NCBI GenBank assembly: GCA_012729495.1
Contig: JAAYCZ010000062.1
Location: forward strand, 1-42,280
Origin: Syntrophomonadaceae bacterium
GTDB lineage: Bacteria > Bacillota > Syntrophomonadia > Syntrophomonadales > Syntrophomonadaceae
Length of the DNA stretch: 42,280 bases
Direction of reading: 5' to 3'
This document shows positions 22,223 to 35,060 of this stretch, in pieces; position 1 is the first letter of the stretch, and every line of letters starts with the position of its first letter. Below the pieces are notes generated by a model that saw only the letters and a program-made list of their open reading frames with translations, was not told where the DNA came from and did no database searches. Made by a program: the position numbers and the translations under genes.

Positions 22223-22337
22223 GCCAAAACCAGAATCACGGTTTACGCAGTTAAGGCCAAAGGAAACATGATGTTGCTTGAACAAGAAAAATGGAATAAA
22301 TAGTCGGGCGGTTGTTTGGAAGGAGGGAAATGACGTA

Positions 22338-23201
22338 ATGGAGGTCAAAAAACAACTGGAAAAAATTCTCCATATGGGAGTCGGCAGCCGGGTTATAAAT
22401 TTGCCTCTGGAAGAAATCAGCCCCAATCCATTTCAACCGCGCAAAGAGTTTGATGAAATGGAATTAAAGGAACTGGCCCAGTCGATCAGCAATTTCGGCG
22501 TCATACAGCCCGTCATCGTACGTAAAAAAAAGGGAGGCTATCAGCTGATTGCCGGGGAAAGACGTTATCGGGCCTGCAAGCTAATCGGGCAGCAGCATAT
22601 TCCGGCCATTATCCAGGAAATTGATGATGAAGCCATGGCGGCGGTTTCACTGATCGAAAATTTGCAGCGCAAGGAACTGAATTATTTTGAAGAAGCGATC
22701 GCCTACAGCACGTTAATTAACCGTTTCGGACTGACTCAGGAGGAACTGGCACAGCGGGTGGGCAAAAGCCAGTCAGCCATTGCCAATAAATTAAGGCTAT
22801 TGAAAATTTCGCCGGAAATAAGAAACCTGATCATCACCGGAATAATCACCGAACGTCATGCCCGTGCTCTGCTCAAACTAAATACCGCCGATATGCAAAA
22901 AGAGATTATCAGAAATATTTACGAGCGTGATCTTAATGTCAAGGAGACCGAGGAACTGGTTGAAAAGGTCAGGCTCAATAATATCCCGCGTGAATCAAAA
23001 CCATCCGCCAATGGCCAAAATGTATCCATGATCATCAGGGATGCAAGGATATTTTTAAATACGATCAAAGAAACGGTCAACCGGGCCAGACAGACAGGCA
23101 TTGACATGCTGGTAATCGAAAATGAAAATGAAAATGAATATGAAATCACCATTAAAGTCTTAAAACTACGTAAGAACAGCCGCTTGATGACGGGGATGTA
23201 G
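22338..23201 (+). CDS. noc: nucleoid occlusion protein Noc (ParB paralogue)
   Basis: 287-aa ParB/Noc family CTPase clamp. The N-terminus MEVKKQLEKILHMG could form the membrane-binding amphipathic helix. The CTP-binding motifs are GERRYRA and ENLQRKE, and the helix-turn-helix is GKSQSAIANKLRLL. Three of the four residues that distinguish Noc from ParB in the published specificity switch are present (Q173, K179 and R201 in Caulobacter ParB numbering: GKSQ, NK, TERHAR). It should therefore prefer Noc sites to parS. The ATG at 22338 follows AAGGAGGG; the frame is open from 22278 but without a usable SD. It sits between rsmG and parA, as in Bacillus. Confidence 0.88.
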   Translation: MEVKKQLEKILHMGVGSRVINLPLEEISPNPFQPRKEFDEMELKELAQSISNFGVIQPVIVRKKKGGYQLIAGERRYRACKLIGQQHIPAIIQEIDDEAMAAVSLIENLQRKELNYFEEAIAYSTLINRFGLTQEELAQRVGKSQSAIANKLRLLKISPEIRNLIITGIITERHARALLKLNTADMQKEIIRNIYERDLNVKETEELVEKVRLNNIPRESKPSANGQNVSMIIRDARIFLNTIKETVNRARQTGIDMLVIENENENEYEITIKVLKLRKNSRLMTGM

Positions 23202-23209
23202 ATCAAAAA

Positions 23210-23225
23210 TGTTTCACGTGAAACA
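23210..23225. other. parS site 1
   Basis: Perfect 16-bp palindrome TGTTTCACGTGAAACA, the Firmicute parS sequence bound by ParB, inside the longer palindrome AAAATGTTTCACGTGAAACATTTT. It begins 9 bp after the noc stop. Confidence 0.95.
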
Positions 23226-23230
23226 TTTTC

Positions 23231-23351
23231 AGACCGTCTAAAATGGCTTATAGCTGCGTTAATCGGGAAGTCCGTTCAATCGGCGTACCTCATGTACGCC
23301 TCAATCGCGGGCTTCCCGATCGCCTTGCTCTAAACCATTTTCGCTCGGTCT
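23231..23351. repeat. 121-bp imperfect palindrome between parS1 and parS2
   Basis: The arms match symmetrically about position 23291: AGACCG/CGGTCT at the ends, AAAATGG/CCATTTT, ATCGGGAAG/CTTCCCGAT and a central GGCGTAC-CTCAT-GTACGCC. It encodes nothing plausible. It could be a dispersed palindromic (REP/MITE-like) element or a structured spacer between the two parS sites. Confidence 0.8.
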
Positions 23352-23376
23352 GCCTGGATATTTAAGTTTTTGAAAA

Positions 23377-23392
23377 TGTTTCACGTGAAACA
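23377..23392. other. parS site 2
   Basis: Perfect TGTTTCACGTGAAACA within AAAATGTTTCACGTGAAACATTTTT, on the far side of the 121-bp palindrome. Confidence 0.95.
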
Positions 23393-23431
23393 TTTTTAAA
23401 AAAGATAAACCATTATCATTCGTTGAAAGAT

Positions 23432-23474
23432 ACCGGAATAACGGCATTATAGTCGTTGTTCCGGTTATTTTTTT
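23432..23474 (+). terminator. terminator upstream of parA
   Basis: A 12-bp stem, ACCGGAATAACG (23432-23443) with CGTTGTTCCGGT (23454-23465), one G-T pair, 10-nt loop, then TATTTTTTT. It ends the mnmE-noc unit. Confidence 0.9.
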
Positions 23475-23578
23475 GCGGGTTAAGAAAAACTTTTCAGCGA
23501 AAAGCAAAAAATTTAAGGAAGGATTCTTAAAAAGGTAGTAGAATGTTAAAAGGTGAAGGCAAGGAAGGTGGACAGTTA

Positions 23579-24361
23579 ATGGCAAAAATTATTGCGGTGG
23601 CAAATCAGAAGGGCGGCGTTGGCAAAACTACTACTTCGGTTAATTTAGCCGCCTATCTGGCCCTGGAGGGTTACCGGGTATTATTAGTTGATTGTGATCC
23701 ACAGGGAAATGCCAGCAGCGGTATGGGGATAAACCGCAAAAAACTGCCCTATTGTGTATATAATCTGCTAATCGATGGTATGGAGATAAATAAGGTTATT
23801 TGCCGTACCAAGATAAATAATCTTATGGTGCTGCCGGCAACCATCCAGTTGGCCGGTGCCGAGGTGGAACTGGCCAACCGCAAAGGTAGGGAGTTCGAGC
23901 TGGCCAGGGCGCTGCAGCCGGCAGTTGATGATTATGATTATATTATTTTGGATTGTCCCCCTTCACTGGGACTTTTGACCATTAACGCACTGGCGGCTGG
24001 AACATCGGTGCTGATTCCCCTGCAGTGTGAATATTATGCCCTGGAGGGACTGAGCCAGTTGATGGAAACGGTTCAATTGGTAAAAGCCCGCCTTAATCCC
24101 GGGCTACATGTGGAAGGAATTCTGTTCACCATGTTTGATGGACGCACCAATCTTTCCATTCAAGTGGTTGATGAAGTAAAACGCCATTTTCGTAAAGAAG
24201 TTTACCGCACGGTCATCCCTCGCAACGTAAGACTGAGTGAAGCCCCCAGTCATGGCAAACCGATCGCCTTGTATGATCCGCGATCCAGAGGCGCGGAAGT
24301 ATATAAAGAATTAGCCAGGGAGGTCATAGAACGTGGCAAAGCCAGAAAGAGGTCTAGGTAG
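23579..24361 (+). CDS. parA: chromosome partitioning ATPase ParA/Soj
   Basis: Deviant Walker-type ATPase that moves ParB-parS complexes and, in Bacillus, regulates DnaA. The 260-aa product has the deviant Walker A KGGVGKTT near the N-terminus ([18 protein letters not shown]), the A' motif [14 protein letters not shown] and Walker [12 protein letters not shown]. The ATG at 23579 follows AAGGAAGGTGG; the open frame starts at 23543. Its end overlaps parB by 29 bp. Confidence 0.96.
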
Positions 24362-25181
24362 AGGTTTGGATGCACTGTTTTCCGAGGAACACAGTGTCGG
24401 GGAAAAACAGGTCGCCGAGATCGAGATTAAACTAATCCATCCCCGCAAGAATCAGCCCCGCAAAAACTTTGATCCGCAGCTATTACAGGAACTGTCCGAG
24501 TCCATTCGGGAAAGAGGCGTTCTGCAGCCGATATTGCTCCGTCCGCTTGACAAGGGTTATCAAATCGTTGCCGGGGAACGGCGCTGGCGGGCGGCCAAAA
24601 TGGCGGGACTGAAGACGATGCCGGCACTGGTTCGGGAAATGGGAGACGCAGAAGTAGCAGAAATTTCGCTGATCGAAAATCTGCAGCGGGATGATCTATC
24701 CATCATCGAAGAAGCCCTGGCCTATAAAAATATGATTGAGGAATTCGATTACCGGCAGGATATTTTATCCCAGAAAATCGGCAAGAGCAGAGTTCATATC
24801 AGCAATACCATCCGCTTGCTGAGTTTGCCGCAGGAAATAATTACCCTGTTGGAAAACAAACAACTTACTCCCGGGCATGCCCGGGCCTTACTTAGATTGG
24901 ACAGTGATGCGGCCCAGATAAAAGCAGCCCGCAGGATTGCGGACGGCAAACTATCAGTGCGCCAGGTCGAGGAACTAATCCGCTTTGACAACAAAGATAC
25001 CGGCAAAGCGCAGAGCAAAACCGCAGAGGAAGTTGATCTGGAAGAGCGGCTGCAAAAACATTTGGGCAGCAAGGTAGAGTTTAAGCGCCGCCGCCAGGGT
25101 GGTACAATAGAGATAACTTATTTTAATAACGAGGATCTGGAAAGAATCCTGGAAATCATCGGTCTGGACAATATAAATTAA
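24333..25181 (+). CDS. parB: chromosome partitioning protein ParB/Spo0J
   Basis: CTP-dependent DNA clamp that loads at parS and spreads, 282 aa. The N-terminal ParA-stimulating peptide is [14 protein letters not shown]-binding motifs are GERRWRAA and ENLQRDD, the helix-turn-helix is [14 protein letters not shown], and the C-terminal dimerisation domain ends with EILEIIGL. ParB-type specificity residues R173, T179 and G201 (Caulobacter numbering) are present, unlike the Noc paralogue. The start is GTG inside parA behind GGGAGG. It is followed immediately by the parS repeat array. Confidence 0.96.
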
Positions 25182-25210
25182 GGCCGTTGACTATATTCAA
25201 AAACAGAAAA

Positions 25211-25226
25211 TGTTTCACGTGAAACA
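25211..25226. other. parS site 3
   Basis: Perfect TGTTTCACGTGAAACA, 29 bp after the parB stop, first of the tandem array. Confidence 0.95.
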
Positions 25227-25234
25227 ATTTTAAG

Positions 25235-25266
25235 GTGACAGGTACAATAAAACTTGTCACTTTTTT
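25235..25266 (+). terminator. terminator within the parS array, copy A (ends parB)
   Basis: GTGACAGG (25235-25242) pairs with CTTGTCAC (25253-25260), one G-T, 10-nt loop, then TTTTTT. It probably ends the parA-parB transcript. Confidence 0.85.
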
Positions 25267-25342
25267 AATTGGTCAAACAGAATAAAACTCCTGATATAAT
25301 GAGGGTTGAGCGCAGTTTACACAAATAATTGAAAACAGAAAA

Positions 25343-25358
25343 TGTTTCACGTGAAACA
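25343..25358. other. parS site 4
   Basis: Perfect TGTTTCACGTGAAACA, 132 bp after site 3. Confidence 0.95.
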
Positions 25359-25367
25359 TTTAAGGTG

Positions 25368-25486
25368 AGCGGATCTAATCTCAGTGAGATTCCCCCTACG
25401 GGGACTACACATGTGACCTAAAGGTCACAATTAAGGTTGCTTCACTTTGTTCAGAATGACATTAACGGTATTTTCTTATTAAACAT
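25368..25486. mobile_element. palindrome-rich insertion inside the parS array
   Basis: The second repeat unit is about 127 bp longer than the others. The extra DNA contains the palindromes AATCTCAGTGAGATT, CCCCCTACGGGG and TGTGACCTAAAGGTCACA, and ends TTCAGAATGACA. It is bounded by a duplicated AAACATTT(T)AAGGTGA (25354-25368 and 25481-25496). This looks like a small non-coding dispersed element or a duplication by recombination; no transposase is present. Confidence 0.5.
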
Positions 25487-25492
25487 TTTAAG

Positions 25493-25524
25493 GTGACAGG
25501 TACAATAAAACTTGTCACTTTTTT
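25493..25524 (+). terminator. terminator within the parS array, copy B
   Basis: Same GTGACAGG/CTTGTCAC stem as copy A (25493-25500 with 25511-25518) followed by TTTTTT. The stem is degraded in the two later units. Confidence 0.75.
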
Positions 25525-25600
25525 AATTGGTCAAATAGAATAAAACTCAAGGTATATTGAAGTTGAGCGCAGATTACACTGATGATAAAAAAACAGAAAA

Positions 25601-25616
25601 TGTTTCACGTGAAACA
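25601..25616. other. parS site 5
   Basis: Perfect TGTTTCACGTGAAACA. Confidence 0.95.
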
Positions 25617-25729
25617 ATTTTAGGTGATAATTACAATAAAACCGGTCCCTTTTTATTTGCCCAAACAGAATAAGATTCCGGTATAATGGGGCGTTAGTGC
25701 AGTTTACATTGATGATAAAAAAACTTAAA

Positions 25730-25745
25730 TGTTTCACGTGAAACA
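25730..25745. other. parS site 6
   Basis: Perfect TGTTTCACGTGAAACA, 129 bp after site 5. Confidence 0.95.
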
Positions 25746-25858
25746 ATTTTAGGTGATAATACAATAAAACCGATCCCCTTTTATTTGCCCAAACAGAATA
25801 CAAATTCCGGTATAATGGGATGCGAGCACAAATTTTACAGATAATAAAAAACAGAAAA

Positions 25859-25874
25859 TGTTTCACGTGAAACA
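25859..25874. other. parS site 7
   Basis: Perfect TGTTTCACGTGAAACA, 129 bp after site 6; last of the array. Confidence 0.95.
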
Positions 25875-26030
25875 TTTTCTATCCGACAAAGGCAAAAAAC
25901 TCTTACGTAATAGAAGGGCTGCGCCGAACAAAAACAAAATATTGTTGTCAGGCTTATGCGCAGTAATAAAAATATTAAAAATATATCCAGTATAAAATTT
26001 GCTTGACCATTGCTAACCTTTTTAAGCTTT

Positions 26031-26058
26031 AACCCGTATTCTATGGATACGGGTTTTT
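26031..26058 (+). terminator. terminator downstream of the parS array
   Basis: ACCCGTAT (26032-26039) pairs with ATACGGGT (26047-26054) around a 7-nt loop, followed by TTTTT. No plus-strand gene is identified immediately upstream. It may end array transcripts or insulate the following gene. The stretch from 25875 to 26030 is AT-rich with no gene I can support. Confidence 0.75.
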
Positions 26059-26104
26059 GCTGCTTAAGGAGAACATCGGGCTGCAAAAGATAGATTAACA
26101 TCGG

Positions 26105-26133
26105 AACAGCGAAGGATGGTTTTACATATATTA
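26105..26133 (+). promoter_or_regulatory. sigma-K-like promoter
   Basis: AACA (26105-26108), exactly 16 nt, then CATATATTA (26125-26133). This fits the Bacillus sigma-K pattern of a -35 mACm element 16 nt from a CATAnnnTA -10. It is 63 bp before the start of the next gene. A chance match cannot be excluded. Confidence 0.45.
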
Positions 26134-26196
26134 AAATAATCAGCCGAATAGTTGCTTGTTTTTGCCAATAGTAGCGAAAGGAGGGAAACAAGGAAA

Positions 26197-26925
26197 ATGA
26201 TAAAGAGAAAGCCGTCGAGCAAAAAATGTAAATCTACAAAGAAAACCATAAAAGAGAAATATGAACCGGTTTACATTACTTTGAATCTGCATAATTGCAA
26301 CACCAGCAAGATCTATAACCGTAATCGTTTGCATAGCCAGCCAAAACTTGAATGCAAAAAAGGCAAACCTGCCCCGCCGCCGCCCAAACCAAAAGAACCT
26401 AAATGTCCTGAACCCTGCCCGAGCTGTATCCCCCGTCGGGGTGAACTGGTAATCAACGGCGGGTTTGAAAATAAACCGGATCAGTTCCTGGGATGGATCA
26501 TTAATGCCGGAGTGGGTGCGATCAAACCGCAGTATGGTGATATCCCTCATCAGGGACATAACGCGGTCCGCTTGGGTTCAGTAAACACTCGCGGACTCAT
26601 TTATCAGGATGTGCCCGGTATTTGCCCGGGAATGTTTTACCAGCTGAATTTCTTCCTCAGTGCAGCGACAAAATGCGGTAACAAAAGCGTGTTTATATTG
26701 ATGGAGTTTCTGGATCAAAATAGAAACCGGTTGCATAATCCGGTGCTGGAGATACTTGTTCCTGAAGACAGCCTTACCAATGAAACATTCACATTATTTA
26801 TAAATGCCACCTGGGTTCCAGCGCCTCCGGAAACAAGATTTGCCCGGATCAGTTTCAGCACTGATTGTGCTGAGCGCGCAGGCAGATTTGTTCACCTCGA
26901 TGATGTATCCCTGATTGCGATATAA
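26197..26925 (+). CDS. putative spore-surface protein with NTTRR-F1/carbohydrate-binding-like domain
   Basis: 242-aa protein with no signal peptide. The N-terminal about 50 residues are Lys-rich, followed by a proline-rich segment (PAPPPPKPKEPK) and a CPEPCPSC cysteine cluster (about 75-82). From about residue 88 (GELVINGGFEN, then GW, PHQGHNAVRLGS, IYQDVP, PGMFYQL) it resembles the beta-sandwich domain found in Firmicute exosporium/collagen-like proteins (NTTRR-F1) or CBM4/9-like modules. It ends with FVHLDDVSLIAI, typical of such folds. AAAGGAGGG and AAGGAAA precede the ATG. A sigma-K-like promoter and the neighbouring DUF4489 gene suggest a spore-coat or exosporium role. That role is inference; the domain resemblance is by eye. 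Confidence 0.6.
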   Translation: MIKRKPSSKKCKSTKKTIKEKYEPVYITLNLHNCNTSKIYNRNRLHSQPKLECKKGKPAPPPPKPKEPKCPEPCPSCIPRRGELVINGGFENKPDQFLGWIINAGVGAIKPQYGDIPHQGHNAVRLGSVNTRGLIYQDVPGICPGMFYQLNFFLSAATKCGNKSVFILMEFLDQNRNRLHNPVLEILVPEDSLTNETFTLFINATWVPAPPETRFARISFSTDCAERAGRFVHLDDVSLIAI

Positions 26926-27093: not shown

Positions 27094-27690
27094 GTGAACA
27101 GGAGCAAAGAAAAATGTTGTTATGAAGATGCGATGATATACGAGCCGGAAATGGAATGCAAACCGCATCCGAGGCCGCACAAAGAGACGGAAGTCATTTT
27201 GAATTGCGGTACGGTAAAAGGCTCGGGACCAGTGCCATTCTACGTGAGCTGCCCACAAGTACAGGCAAGCGTGGTTCTTGATACTGAAAAGCTGAAAAAT
27301 GCTGCCATTAAAATCGATTTTTCCGCATTAATTTCTTTTAAGACCACTGATGAAGATTTTTTCCTGCATTTGGGTTTTAAATTGAGTAAAATTTGCGGAG
27401 GCGCCAGTATCCATCTGGGTGATTGGACCTTTGAAAAAGGTCATTTCCCCAATTACATGGTTGGAAATGCCTTATCAGCAGGAGCACCGCAGCATCCGCA
27501 ACCGCCGGATTGTGACATTTTCCTGGAAACAGATGCCTTCTGCTTTAGCTGTTGTGAATGTGAGGACTGTCCGGGATGCTGCCGCTATATTGTCGAACTG
27601 GTCGATCAGCAGTGTTGGAATATTGATTATGCTGTGGTCACCAATATATCACTCACTGCTATGGCGGTTGGTGAGAAAAAATATTATTAG
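27094..27690 (+). CDS. DUF4489 domain-containing protein
   Basis: 198-aa soluble, cysteine-rich protein of the clostridial DUF4489 family. It shows the family's NCGTVKGSGPVPFYVSCP start, the beta-strand ASVVLDTEKLKNAAIKIDFSA, and the diagnostic FCFSCCECEDCPGCC cluster followed by YIVEL and NISLTAMAV. The family is common in spore-forming Clostridia and of unproven function; it is often suspected to be spore-associated. The GTG start follows TTAGGAGG. No sigma-K-like promoter as good as that of the preceding gene was found. The cysteine cluster could bind metal or be cross-linked. Confidence 0.75.
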   Translation: MNRSKEKCCYEDAMIYEPEMECKPHPRPHKETEVILNCGTVKGSGPVPFYVSCPQVQASVVLDTEKLKNAAIKIDFSALISFKTTDEDFFLHLGFKLSKICGGASIHLGDWTFEKGHFPNYMVGNALSAGAPQHPQPPDCDIFLETDAFCFSCCECEDCPGCCRYIVELVDQQCWNIDYAVVTNISLTAMAVGEKKYY

Positions 27691-33155: not shown

Positions 33156-35060
33156 ATGAAAAGACTTATAATTGGTACGGCCGGACATATCGATCATGGC
33201 AAGACCACGCTGGTTAGAGCTTTAACCGGAATCGAAACCGACCGGCTGAAAGAAGAAAGACAAAGGGGCATATCGATTGAATTGGGGTTTGCACCCTTTA
33301 ATCTGCCCAGTGGACAGAAAGCAGCTATCGTAGACGTTCCCGGTCATGAAAGATTTATCCGCCATATGCTGGCCGGGGCCTTCGGTATCGACATGGTTCT
33401 GTTTACGATTGCCGCCGATGAAGGGGTGATGCCGCAGACACGTGAACATATGGACATTATTGAGCTGCTGGGAGTAGACAAGGGCATTGTTGTCATCACC
33501 AAAAAAGATATGGTGGACGAAGAATGGCTGATGATGGTTGAAGAAGAAGCAAGAGAATATGCTGACAAAAGCATATTAAAAGGCTGTCCGATTATAGCAG
33601 TTTCCGCAGTGACCGGAGATGGAATCCAGGAACTGCTGCAGACGATTGAGAAGGTAGCCTCTGAAGTCGAGGAAAAACCGGTTTTTGGTCAGGCGCGGCT
33701 GCCTATCGACCGGGTTTTCAGTATATCCGGTTTTGGTACTGTGGTGACCGGGACGTTATGGTCAGGCCAGATCAACGTGGGCGAAAGCCTGGAACTGATG
33801 CCGGTGCAGCGCATGGTCAAAGTCAGGACGCTGCAGGTGCATAATGAAAAAGTCTCCACCGCTTATGCCGGGCAGAGGGTAGCCGTTAATCTGCAGGGCA
33901 TCGATATACAGGATATTAAAAGAGGCTATCTGCTAGCCAGCAGCGGCTATCTGGAGCCCAGTTATCGGATCAATGCACGCTTGCGATTGCTCTCCAGCAG
34001 TCCGCGCACACTTAAAAACTGGAACCGAATCAGATTTCATCTGGGTACGGATGAAACTCTGGGGCGAATCGTGCTGCTGGATCGGGATGAACTTCTGCCC
34101 GGAGACGAAGCTTATGCGCAAATCGTTATGGAAAAACAGGTGGTTGCCTATAAGGGAGATCCTTTTGTGATCCGCTATTATTCCCCGGTAAATACGATCG
34201 GCGGGGGGACCATTATCGATCCCAACGCGCCCCGTCAGAAGCGTTTTAAGGAAGACGTCCTGAATGATCTGATGGTCAAGGAGGAAGGCAGCCTTTATGA
34301 TCTGGTGCTGCATGAACTGGAAGCAGCAGGGATAGAGCCGCTAACGGTACAGGAAATAGCGCGCCGCACCGGCAGCAGTGAAGCCAGTATCGAAGACGAA
34401 GTCCAGCAGCTGCTGGATGATGAAAAAATAATCGATACCAGCGGCAAGGGGACTTATTATTTCGGCGCCCAGGCGGTACAGGCCATGGGCAAAACCATGA
34501 CCACCACCATTAGCGAATACCTGCAGAAATATCCGCTGCGCCAGGGATATCCCAAAGAAGATATGCGCAGCCGCTGGTTCAATAAATTAAATCCTAAAGT
34601 CTTTACCGGGTTGCTGAAATATTTTGAGGACAACGGTGTGTTGCAAAGTCAGAACAAACTCATCACCCTGCCCAATTATGCAGCTCATCCAGGTGAGAAA
34701 GAAAAAATAATTATCGCGGAAATCAAGCATAAATTTCAGGAAAATGAATTTAGTCCTCCCGCCTGGGAAGAAATTGAGGCCGTAAAGGGCCTGAATGAAG
34801 CCGATTTGAATGAAATTATTTCTTATTTAATTGATAACGGATTCTTATTTAAAATCAGCGATAGCATATACTTTTCCGTGGCTGCAATAGAAAAGGGCAA
34901 GGAATTGCTGACGGAATATTTTTCCCGGGAAAAGGAACTTTCATTGGCAACCGCCCGGGATATTTTTAATACCTCTCGAAAGTATGCACTTCCTTTGCTA
35001 GAATATTATGATAGGATTCGATTTACCAGAAGAGTTGGCGATATGCGCATAAAAGCTTGA
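33156..35060 (+). CDS. selB: selenocysteine-specific elongation factor SelB
   Basis: Specialised EF-Tu that delivers Sec-tRNA(Sec) to UGA codons followed by a SECIS hairpin. The 634-aa product has a G domain with [10 protein letters not shown] (10-19), DVPGHE and TKKDM, two EF-Tu-like beta-barrels, and four predicted winged-helix domains in the C-terminal about 260 residues that bind SECIS RNA. GGAGGGATAAAT precedes the ATG. The genome should therefore encode selenoproteins such as formate dehydrogenase or selenium-dependent reductases; none is visible in this window. Confidence 0.97.

Follow-up and report, generated by a model that had tools for sequence, protein, structure and literature searches.

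The window analysed here (42,280 nt) is contig C382 of a Syntrophomonadaceae draft genome of 2.94 Mb in 386 contigs. Judged from its open reading frames (ORFs) rather than from family searches, it represents the usual origin region of Bacillota, with dnaA, dnaN, recF, gyrB, gyrA, rnpA, mnmE, mnmG and rsmG. The segregation genes lie in the order noc, parA and parB (Table 1). The parA product scored below the cut-off of every NCBIfam model among the 25 matches listed (33 matched). ParB has ParB_N, HTH_ParB and ParB_C domains (N-terminal, HTH and dimerisation) and is 85% and 66% identical to its counterparts in the relatives G001 and G002, respectively. With these domains, and with the 16-bp parS (TGTTTCACGTGAAACA) adjoining parAB near the origin, the system belongs to the chromosomal ParABS type. 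A single TTTCCCGGGAAA palindrome at window position 34921, inside a selB-like ORF (33156-35060, from the ORF reading), resembles the core of the Bacillus subtilis Noc site.

Five perfect parS copies were found behind parB at steps of 132, 258, 129 and 129 nt, all within 664 nt (25211-25874). They sit in head-to-tail units directly behind parB, a sopC-like layout in architecture only, with no common descent claimed. Homology to the unit fades past parS5, where the alignment is poor. The five exact sites bear out the preliminary description, in which units of about 129 nt were proposed to carry a parS palindrome and to have been duplicated in tandem together with its surroundings. Chance does not yield such copies, because the genome holds 25 exact matches to parS and none to the pattern reversed without complementing.

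The 258-nt step from parS2 to parS3 consists of one 130-nt unit and a 128-nt insertion, flanked by AAACATTTAAGGTGA and AAACATTTTAAGGTGA. The inserted repeat matches at least 30 other places in the genome (a lower bound, with 40 of 73 candidate matches scored), several of them near contig ends. A reading of this step as a degenerate unit that had lost its parS (at TTTCTTATTAAACATTTT) was rejected: the stretch is made up of the dispersed repeat's end and duplicated flank, and among seven repeat copies aligned there only L022 matches up to the repeat end. Minus-strand ORFs over the array (25531-25875 and 25835-26191) were taken as read-throughs of the repeats. Downstream genes encode a protein with an NTTRR-F1 match below cut-off (26152-26925) and a DUF4489 protein (27094-27690).

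Table 1 Features of the noc-parAB region and the parS array (window positions; strand "." for palindromic sites).
Feature	Positions	Strand	Remarks
noc, nucleoid occlusion protein	22278..23201	+	TIGR04285 above cut-off
noc-parA parS, copy 1	23210..23225	.	
noc-parA parS, copy 2	23377..23392	.	single parS here in sister genome G001
parA (soj)	23543..24361	+	ParA-type ATPase; named by position and ATPase matches
parB (spo0J)	24333..25181	+	PF02195, PF17762 and PF23552 above cut-off
Unit U1	25205..25336	+	132 nt
parS1	25211..25226	.	starts 30 nt past the parB stop codon (25181), ahead of the terminator at 25232
Candidate GTGAAA-TACAAT pairs	25219-25248, 25609-25637, 25738-25765		sigma-70 scan, 9/12
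T1, strong hairpin and T run	25232..25265	+	-14.1 kcal/mol; also folded jointly with parS1
TATAAT box of U1	25295..25300	+	TGA in front, extended -10-like; promoter activity unsupported
Unit U2	25337..25594	+	130 nt without the insertion
parS2	25343..25358	.	exact match
Insertion in U2	25369..25496	+	dispersed palindromic repeat and one copy of the 15/16-nt direct repeat AAACATTT(T)AAGGTGA
T2, second strong terminator copy	25490..25523	+	-14.1 kcal/mol; only copy behind both box and parS
TATATT box of U2	25553..25558	+	candidate box
Unit U3	25595..25723	+	129 nt; terminator decayed
parS3	25601..25616	.	exact match
TATAAT box of U3	25682..25687	+	candidate box
Unit U4	25724..25852	+	129 nt; terminator decayed
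parS4	25730..25745	.	exact match
TATAAT box of U4	25811..25816	+	candidate box
parS5 and flanks as terminator-like hairpin	25849..25884	-	16 pairs, then T run; no gene known to end there
parS5	25859..25874	.	exact match; centre of a 28-bp perfect palindrome
Hairpin and T4 behind the array	26032..26054	+	from folding; absent from the terminator-scan list

The hairpins and T runs of the two strong terminators have the sequences GTGACAGG/CTTGTCAC. In U3 and U4 the stem is lost, and the corresponding stretches fold at only -2.3 and -1.9 kcal/mol. T1 follows parB and parS1 with no box ahead of it and is therefore most simply taken as the terminator of parAB, leaving T2 as the end of the only full box-parS-terminator cassette. 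Each unit had earlier been thought to have this same order, with a terminator in two copies, and to give a short RNA if transcribed. Repeated cassettes of this kind are not supported: the terminator is intact in two of the four units, and one of these is most simply that of parB itself. The two terminator copies then proposed are indeed present, at 25232 and 25490, but they are not two cassette ends. A terminator scan of 23150-26300 gave an excess of terminator-like sites, seven against 3.2 (sd 2.0) in shuffles. Its place between the parB stop codon and T1 makes it likely that parS1 is read into the 3' untranslated region of the parB transcript; transcription of parS2 to parS5 is not supported. 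The hairpin behind the array could end a transcript leaving the later boxes.

Drift of the units and their search in relatives

Outside parS the units are 69-86% identical (14-31% different), while all 16 parS columns are invariant. With 69 of the 117 other columns invariant, the chance of 16 invariant columns is about 1e-4 if columns are treated as independent. For this test U2 was joined at 25368/25497, with the insertion left out. As parS stayed invariant while the rest of the units drifted, the units were most likely kept for ParB binding.

A query of three units found no copy of the unit in 40 relatives. Matches occurred in 18 of them, the longest (49 nt, G001:C176) containing parS, and nearly all were parS or near-parS with a short flank; two matches (G020:C88 and G001:C231) were not recognised as parS. 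The array site is cut off in the nearest relative, G001, whose contig stops 11 nt past the parB stop codon, and the gene downstream of the array has only a weak 34% match in G001, on another contig. In G002, no parS was found in the 1494 nt behind parB with up to two mismatches allowed. The idea of a box and terminator conserved among relatives thus finds no counterpart in the 40 genomes, and passive duplication is favoured for everything except parS.

parS itself was common at this position. Of 47 loci from relatives, 33 carry it with up to one mismatch in the interval from -4 to +250 nt counted from the parB stop codon; L122 (parS too near the contig end) and L125 and L129 (sites 22 and 12 nt before the stop) were scored as having none. 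ParB matches were obtained from 60 genomes and the parB locus was taken from 50, the other ten being outside this count, as are the locus of the window itself and those of G001 and G005, which are cut off near the stop. Doubled parS behind parB was seen at other spacings (45 nt in L117, 41 nt in L123, 36 nt in L039, and 18 nt in L037, with one mismatched site), and for this reason multiplication of parS behind parB is recurrent, while this particular unit was seen only here.

The region is probably a multi-site ParB-loading centromere, formed when the parS-terminator segment behind parB was amplified in tandem in this lineage, with the box and the terminator as passengers. The segment (parS, the parB terminator and the rest of the spacer) would have been duplicated in tandem to give four units and a fifth parS. 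T1 would end the parAB mRNA, T2 would be its copy, and the last two copies would have decayed. Selection would hold the parS cores, with the -10-like box and terminator merely inherited. ParB dimers load at parS as CTP-dependent clamps and slide outwards. From ParABS biology we infer that five parS in 664 nt would increase the amount of ParB loaded locally, for use in segregation by ParA and in recruiting SMC; ParB binding at the array, a benefit of the extra sites and transcription are likewise what we infer.

Palindromes around parS in related genomes

In relatives parS is often the centre of a longer perfect palindrome. Among the 33 parB-adjacent parS, 11 had at least 7 bp of extra complementary arms, against a mean of 0.40 and a maximum of 4 in 5000 rounds in which right arms were shuffled between genomes, although sites and genomes of one genus are not independent. 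Exact parS were counted once per identical context and away from locus ends, with the G029 parB locus included and L060 (the G001 parS between noc and parA) omitted. Among them, such arms were found at 17 of 68 sites in relatives (67 loci; shuffled mean 0.5, maximum 4 in 2000) and at 9 of 64 sites in other named loci (the best 80 of 594, hence not the nearest relatives; shuffled mean 0.2, maximum 3). The genome under study showed no such excess (1 of 25 at 7 bp or more; shuffled mean 1.2, maximum 5). By crude ORF calls, parS inside ORFs of at least 100 codons had arms of 6 bp or more in none of nine cases in relatives and none of eight in the other loci (best 80 of 594). When shorter ORFs were included, arms of 11 and 14 bp appeared at two of the 11 parS classed as intragenic in relatives; these cases most likely reflect spurious short ORFs called across the palindrome.

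Perfect parS-centred palindromes of 36 to 58 bp with lineage-specific arms were observed in L285 at 601-616 (G002:C4), L290 and L289 (G018:C158 and G033:C237), L286 and L281, and others of this length in L036, L043, L045, L047, L058, L202 and L135. Some run into T runs like intrinsic terminators. Arms of 7 bp or more are present, for example, in the Coprococcus and Lachnospiraceae loci L202 and L152. In G002, a 48-bp palindrome around parS runs into T6 and folds at -41.3 kcal/mol, and at the equivalent locus each side of the stem has changed between G033 and G018. The mean maximum T count was 4.07 of 8 behind arms (29 sites) and 3.30 behind short-armed sites (63 sites; p 0.005). At parB, however, the T run showed no strand preference (3.18 of 8 sense, 2.91 antisense). 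Given the modest T excess and the lack of strand preference at parB, some of these palindromes may be terminators and others plain palindromes. Arms could also grow through palindrome-templated mutation, with no selection involved.

Tentatively, parS in this family and in other Bacillota may often be fused with the hairpin at the end of the preceding gene, above all parB, in which case the centromere would be transcribed by design. One palindrome would then serve both ParB loading and transcript ending, or form an RNA 3' hairpin that ParB might sense; the arms would vary yet stay complementary, with the 16-bp core frozen, and the array in the window would be a derived state in which parS and terminator stand side by side and were amplified as one unit. 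As an account of the window, a single functional parS-terminator element, with parS topping the end hairpin and the two later co-amplified side by side, is rather unlikely, though compatible with a multi-site centromere. The arm excess in relatives and in the other named loci, the stem change on both sides, the T run of G002, the higher T counts behind arms and the terminator-like minus-strand hairpin at parS5 all favour it. Against it stand the absence of enrichment in the own genome, the T run at parB that is no stronger on the sense strand, the templated mutation that could make arms, and the non-independence of sites within one genus. Among the papers listed by a literature search, ranked mainly on other terms, none mentioned parS sites, a weak negative, and the novelty of the extended palindromes is not established.

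Scattered parS and dispersed repeats

Seven of the genome's 25 exact parS lie in the window and the remaining 18 on 18 other contigs. Most of the 60 relatives carry one or two. After the genome under study, the highest numbers are 7 in G001 (same genus), 6 in G029 and 4 in G004; no exact parS occurs in 11 of the 61 genomes searched. At least six of the scattered sites, and one of G001, lie in a dispersed repeat. This parS-bearing repeat of about 100-170 bp was seen in L004, L005, L007, L009, L015 and L017 (parS at 601) and in G001:C296 (L284), and every copy found has a perfect parS in otherwise diverged sequence. Its alignment has 24 invariant columns in a row over parS at a mean column identity of 74%. 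All 38 matches to it listed for the genome (40 of 46 candidates scored) contain parS, and many are parS alone. Two segments of about 750 bp that are 92% identical (L013 and L014; G000:C212 and C227) each carry a perfect parS.

Another dispersed repeat lies between noc and parA, where 23206-23400 reads parS, repeat, parS. It has 28 further matches in the genome, some of which are pieces of one copy. Here parS looks as if it was duplicated along with the repeat insertion. Because parS sits in repeat copies and also flanks the noc-parA repeat, dispersed repeats have apparently multiplied parS in this genome.

There was no sign that the 18 scattered parS lie near the origin: 3 of 115 ORFs from their contigs matched the 400 kb around parB in the complete genome G004, against 29 of 148 for controls (20 contigs, with 23 of the 29 from two contigs) and 24 of 36 for the window. 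This is a weak test, with repeat-bearing rather than random contigs as controls and a gene order that is perhaps unconserved. The contigs with the scattered sites resemble the controls in base composition, so contamination is not indicated as the source of these sites, although the genome has a stated contamination of 5.59%. Widely scattered parS have been described for Bacilli (PMC8357415).

The abundance of dispersed repeats, and the toleration of one inside U2, could be expected if the tandem duplication were neutral and the parS copies kept merely because it is recent, with no added function; the drift of spacers, terminator and box fits this as well. It is nonetheless improbable, as spacers that differ by 14-31% surround five exact parS without a single differing base, and the dispersed parS show the same contrast between invariant core and drifted surroundings.

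Candidate promoters and comparison with known systems

A TATAAT or TATATT box precedes every parS but the first, at a distance of exactly 42 nt from parS2, parS3, parS4 and parS5 and not the 50-65 nt given before. The gap is constant although the unit lengths differ, and could reflect a spacing constraint. The box has a conservation score of 0.917, reached by 17 of 107 windows of the same length, and chance alone would place an exact TATAAT in 8% of random spacers with this AT-rich composition. One ancestral box accounts for all four. At 15-19 nt ahead of the boxes, no -35 better than 4/6 against TTGACA was found (the best, 4/6, at 19 nt), so no unit has a -35/-10 pair at this spacing for its TATAAT box, and a sigma-70 scan of 23150-26300 lists none of the four. 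The doubt about promoter activity voiced in the preliminary description was justified.

The same scan, with a minimum score of 9/12, gave 15 promoter-like pairs against 6.9 (sd 2.9) in shuffles. The best single pair was TTGTCA-18-TAGAAT at 25512-25541 (10/12). In units 1, 3 and 4, GTGAAA, the right half of parS, is followed after 16-18 nt by TACAAT, each pair scoring 9/12, and by our own reading of the alignment unit 2 has the same pair when the insertion is removed. TACAAT falls within an 11-column run, the longest invariant one outside parS; by a rough estimate, such a run is not rare at this level of identity. The pair is a better promoter candidate than the TATAAT box, with a putative function, and such a promoter would have its -35 under ParB and hence be ParB-repressible. 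A search for known RNA families over the region gave two sub-threshold matches only.

That each unit is a small transcription unit, whose RNA with a parS hairpin would start from the TATAAT extended -10 or the GTGAAA-TACAAT pair and be silenced by ParB on parS, is very unlikely: boxes kept in four units at a constant distance from parS, the TGA before that of U1, two strong terminators, the excess of promoter-like pairs and the recurrent GTGAAA-TACAAT with its invariant run speak for it, but there is one complete cassette with two terminators decayed, the boxes have poor -35 sequences, are no more conserved than the spacer and are matched by chance in 0.08 of spacers, the alternative pair only reaches the scan minimum, and neither unit copies in 40 relatives nor RNA families above threshold were found.

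A multi-site centromere would most likely work, by analogy, like sopC of the F plasmid or the parS cluster of Myxococcus xanthus. On the F plasmid, sopC lies behind sopB. It comprises (as parS-F) twelve 43-bp tandem repeats with ten 16-bp inverted repeats (PMC6238139). The likeness is a tandem array of ParB-binding palindromes behind the parB gene, binding being predicted in our case; sopC, however, is on a plasmid, with 43-bp units and another site sequence, whereas the array here is chromosomal, with units of about 129 bp, the standard chromosomal parS and a terminator in the unit. M. xanthus is reported to have 22 parS within 3 kb, likewise a dense chromosomal cluster near parAB, but about 4 kb upstream of parA, with more copies and in an unrelated lineage (PMC3899335), whereas the cluster in the window is directly behind parB. 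As many as 20-23 parS per chromosome, in positions described as origin-proximal, are given for species such as Listeria innocua and Streptomyces coelicolor (PMC7333895). The 25 exact sites found here are similarly numerous, but 18 of them lie on contigs other than the window, a weak test gave no hint that these are close to the origin, and at least six are in a dispersed repeat.

A repeated centromere that is transcribed or silenced had been supposed to be undescribed, but published cases contradict this. The parS sites of pSM19035 are repeat arrays overlapping promoters (PMC9499535), and repression of promoters adjoining parS is reported for ParB proteins of both plasmids and chromosomes (PMC6238139, PMC7022226). 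A repeated centromere coupled to transcription, as proposed for the window, is the likeness to pSM19035; that plasmid differs in its ribbon-helix-helix ParB, its 7-bp repeats and its real regulated promoters (PMC9499535), promoter activity being unsupported here.

A tandem parS cluster behind parB is a known kind of arrangement, to which this locus adds a chromosomal example. Several parS likely make segregation more robust, in the view of one paper (PMC8357415), and the array bears on a question that a review leaves open, namely why species differ so widely in their number of parS (PMC7333895). In the four units of the array the spacers have drifted and parS is frozen, which shows the bases that are seen by selection. 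The extended parS palindromes in relatives merit separate study. If confirmed, the frequent placing of parS within longer palindromes that vary by lineage would tie the loading of ParB to transcript termination.
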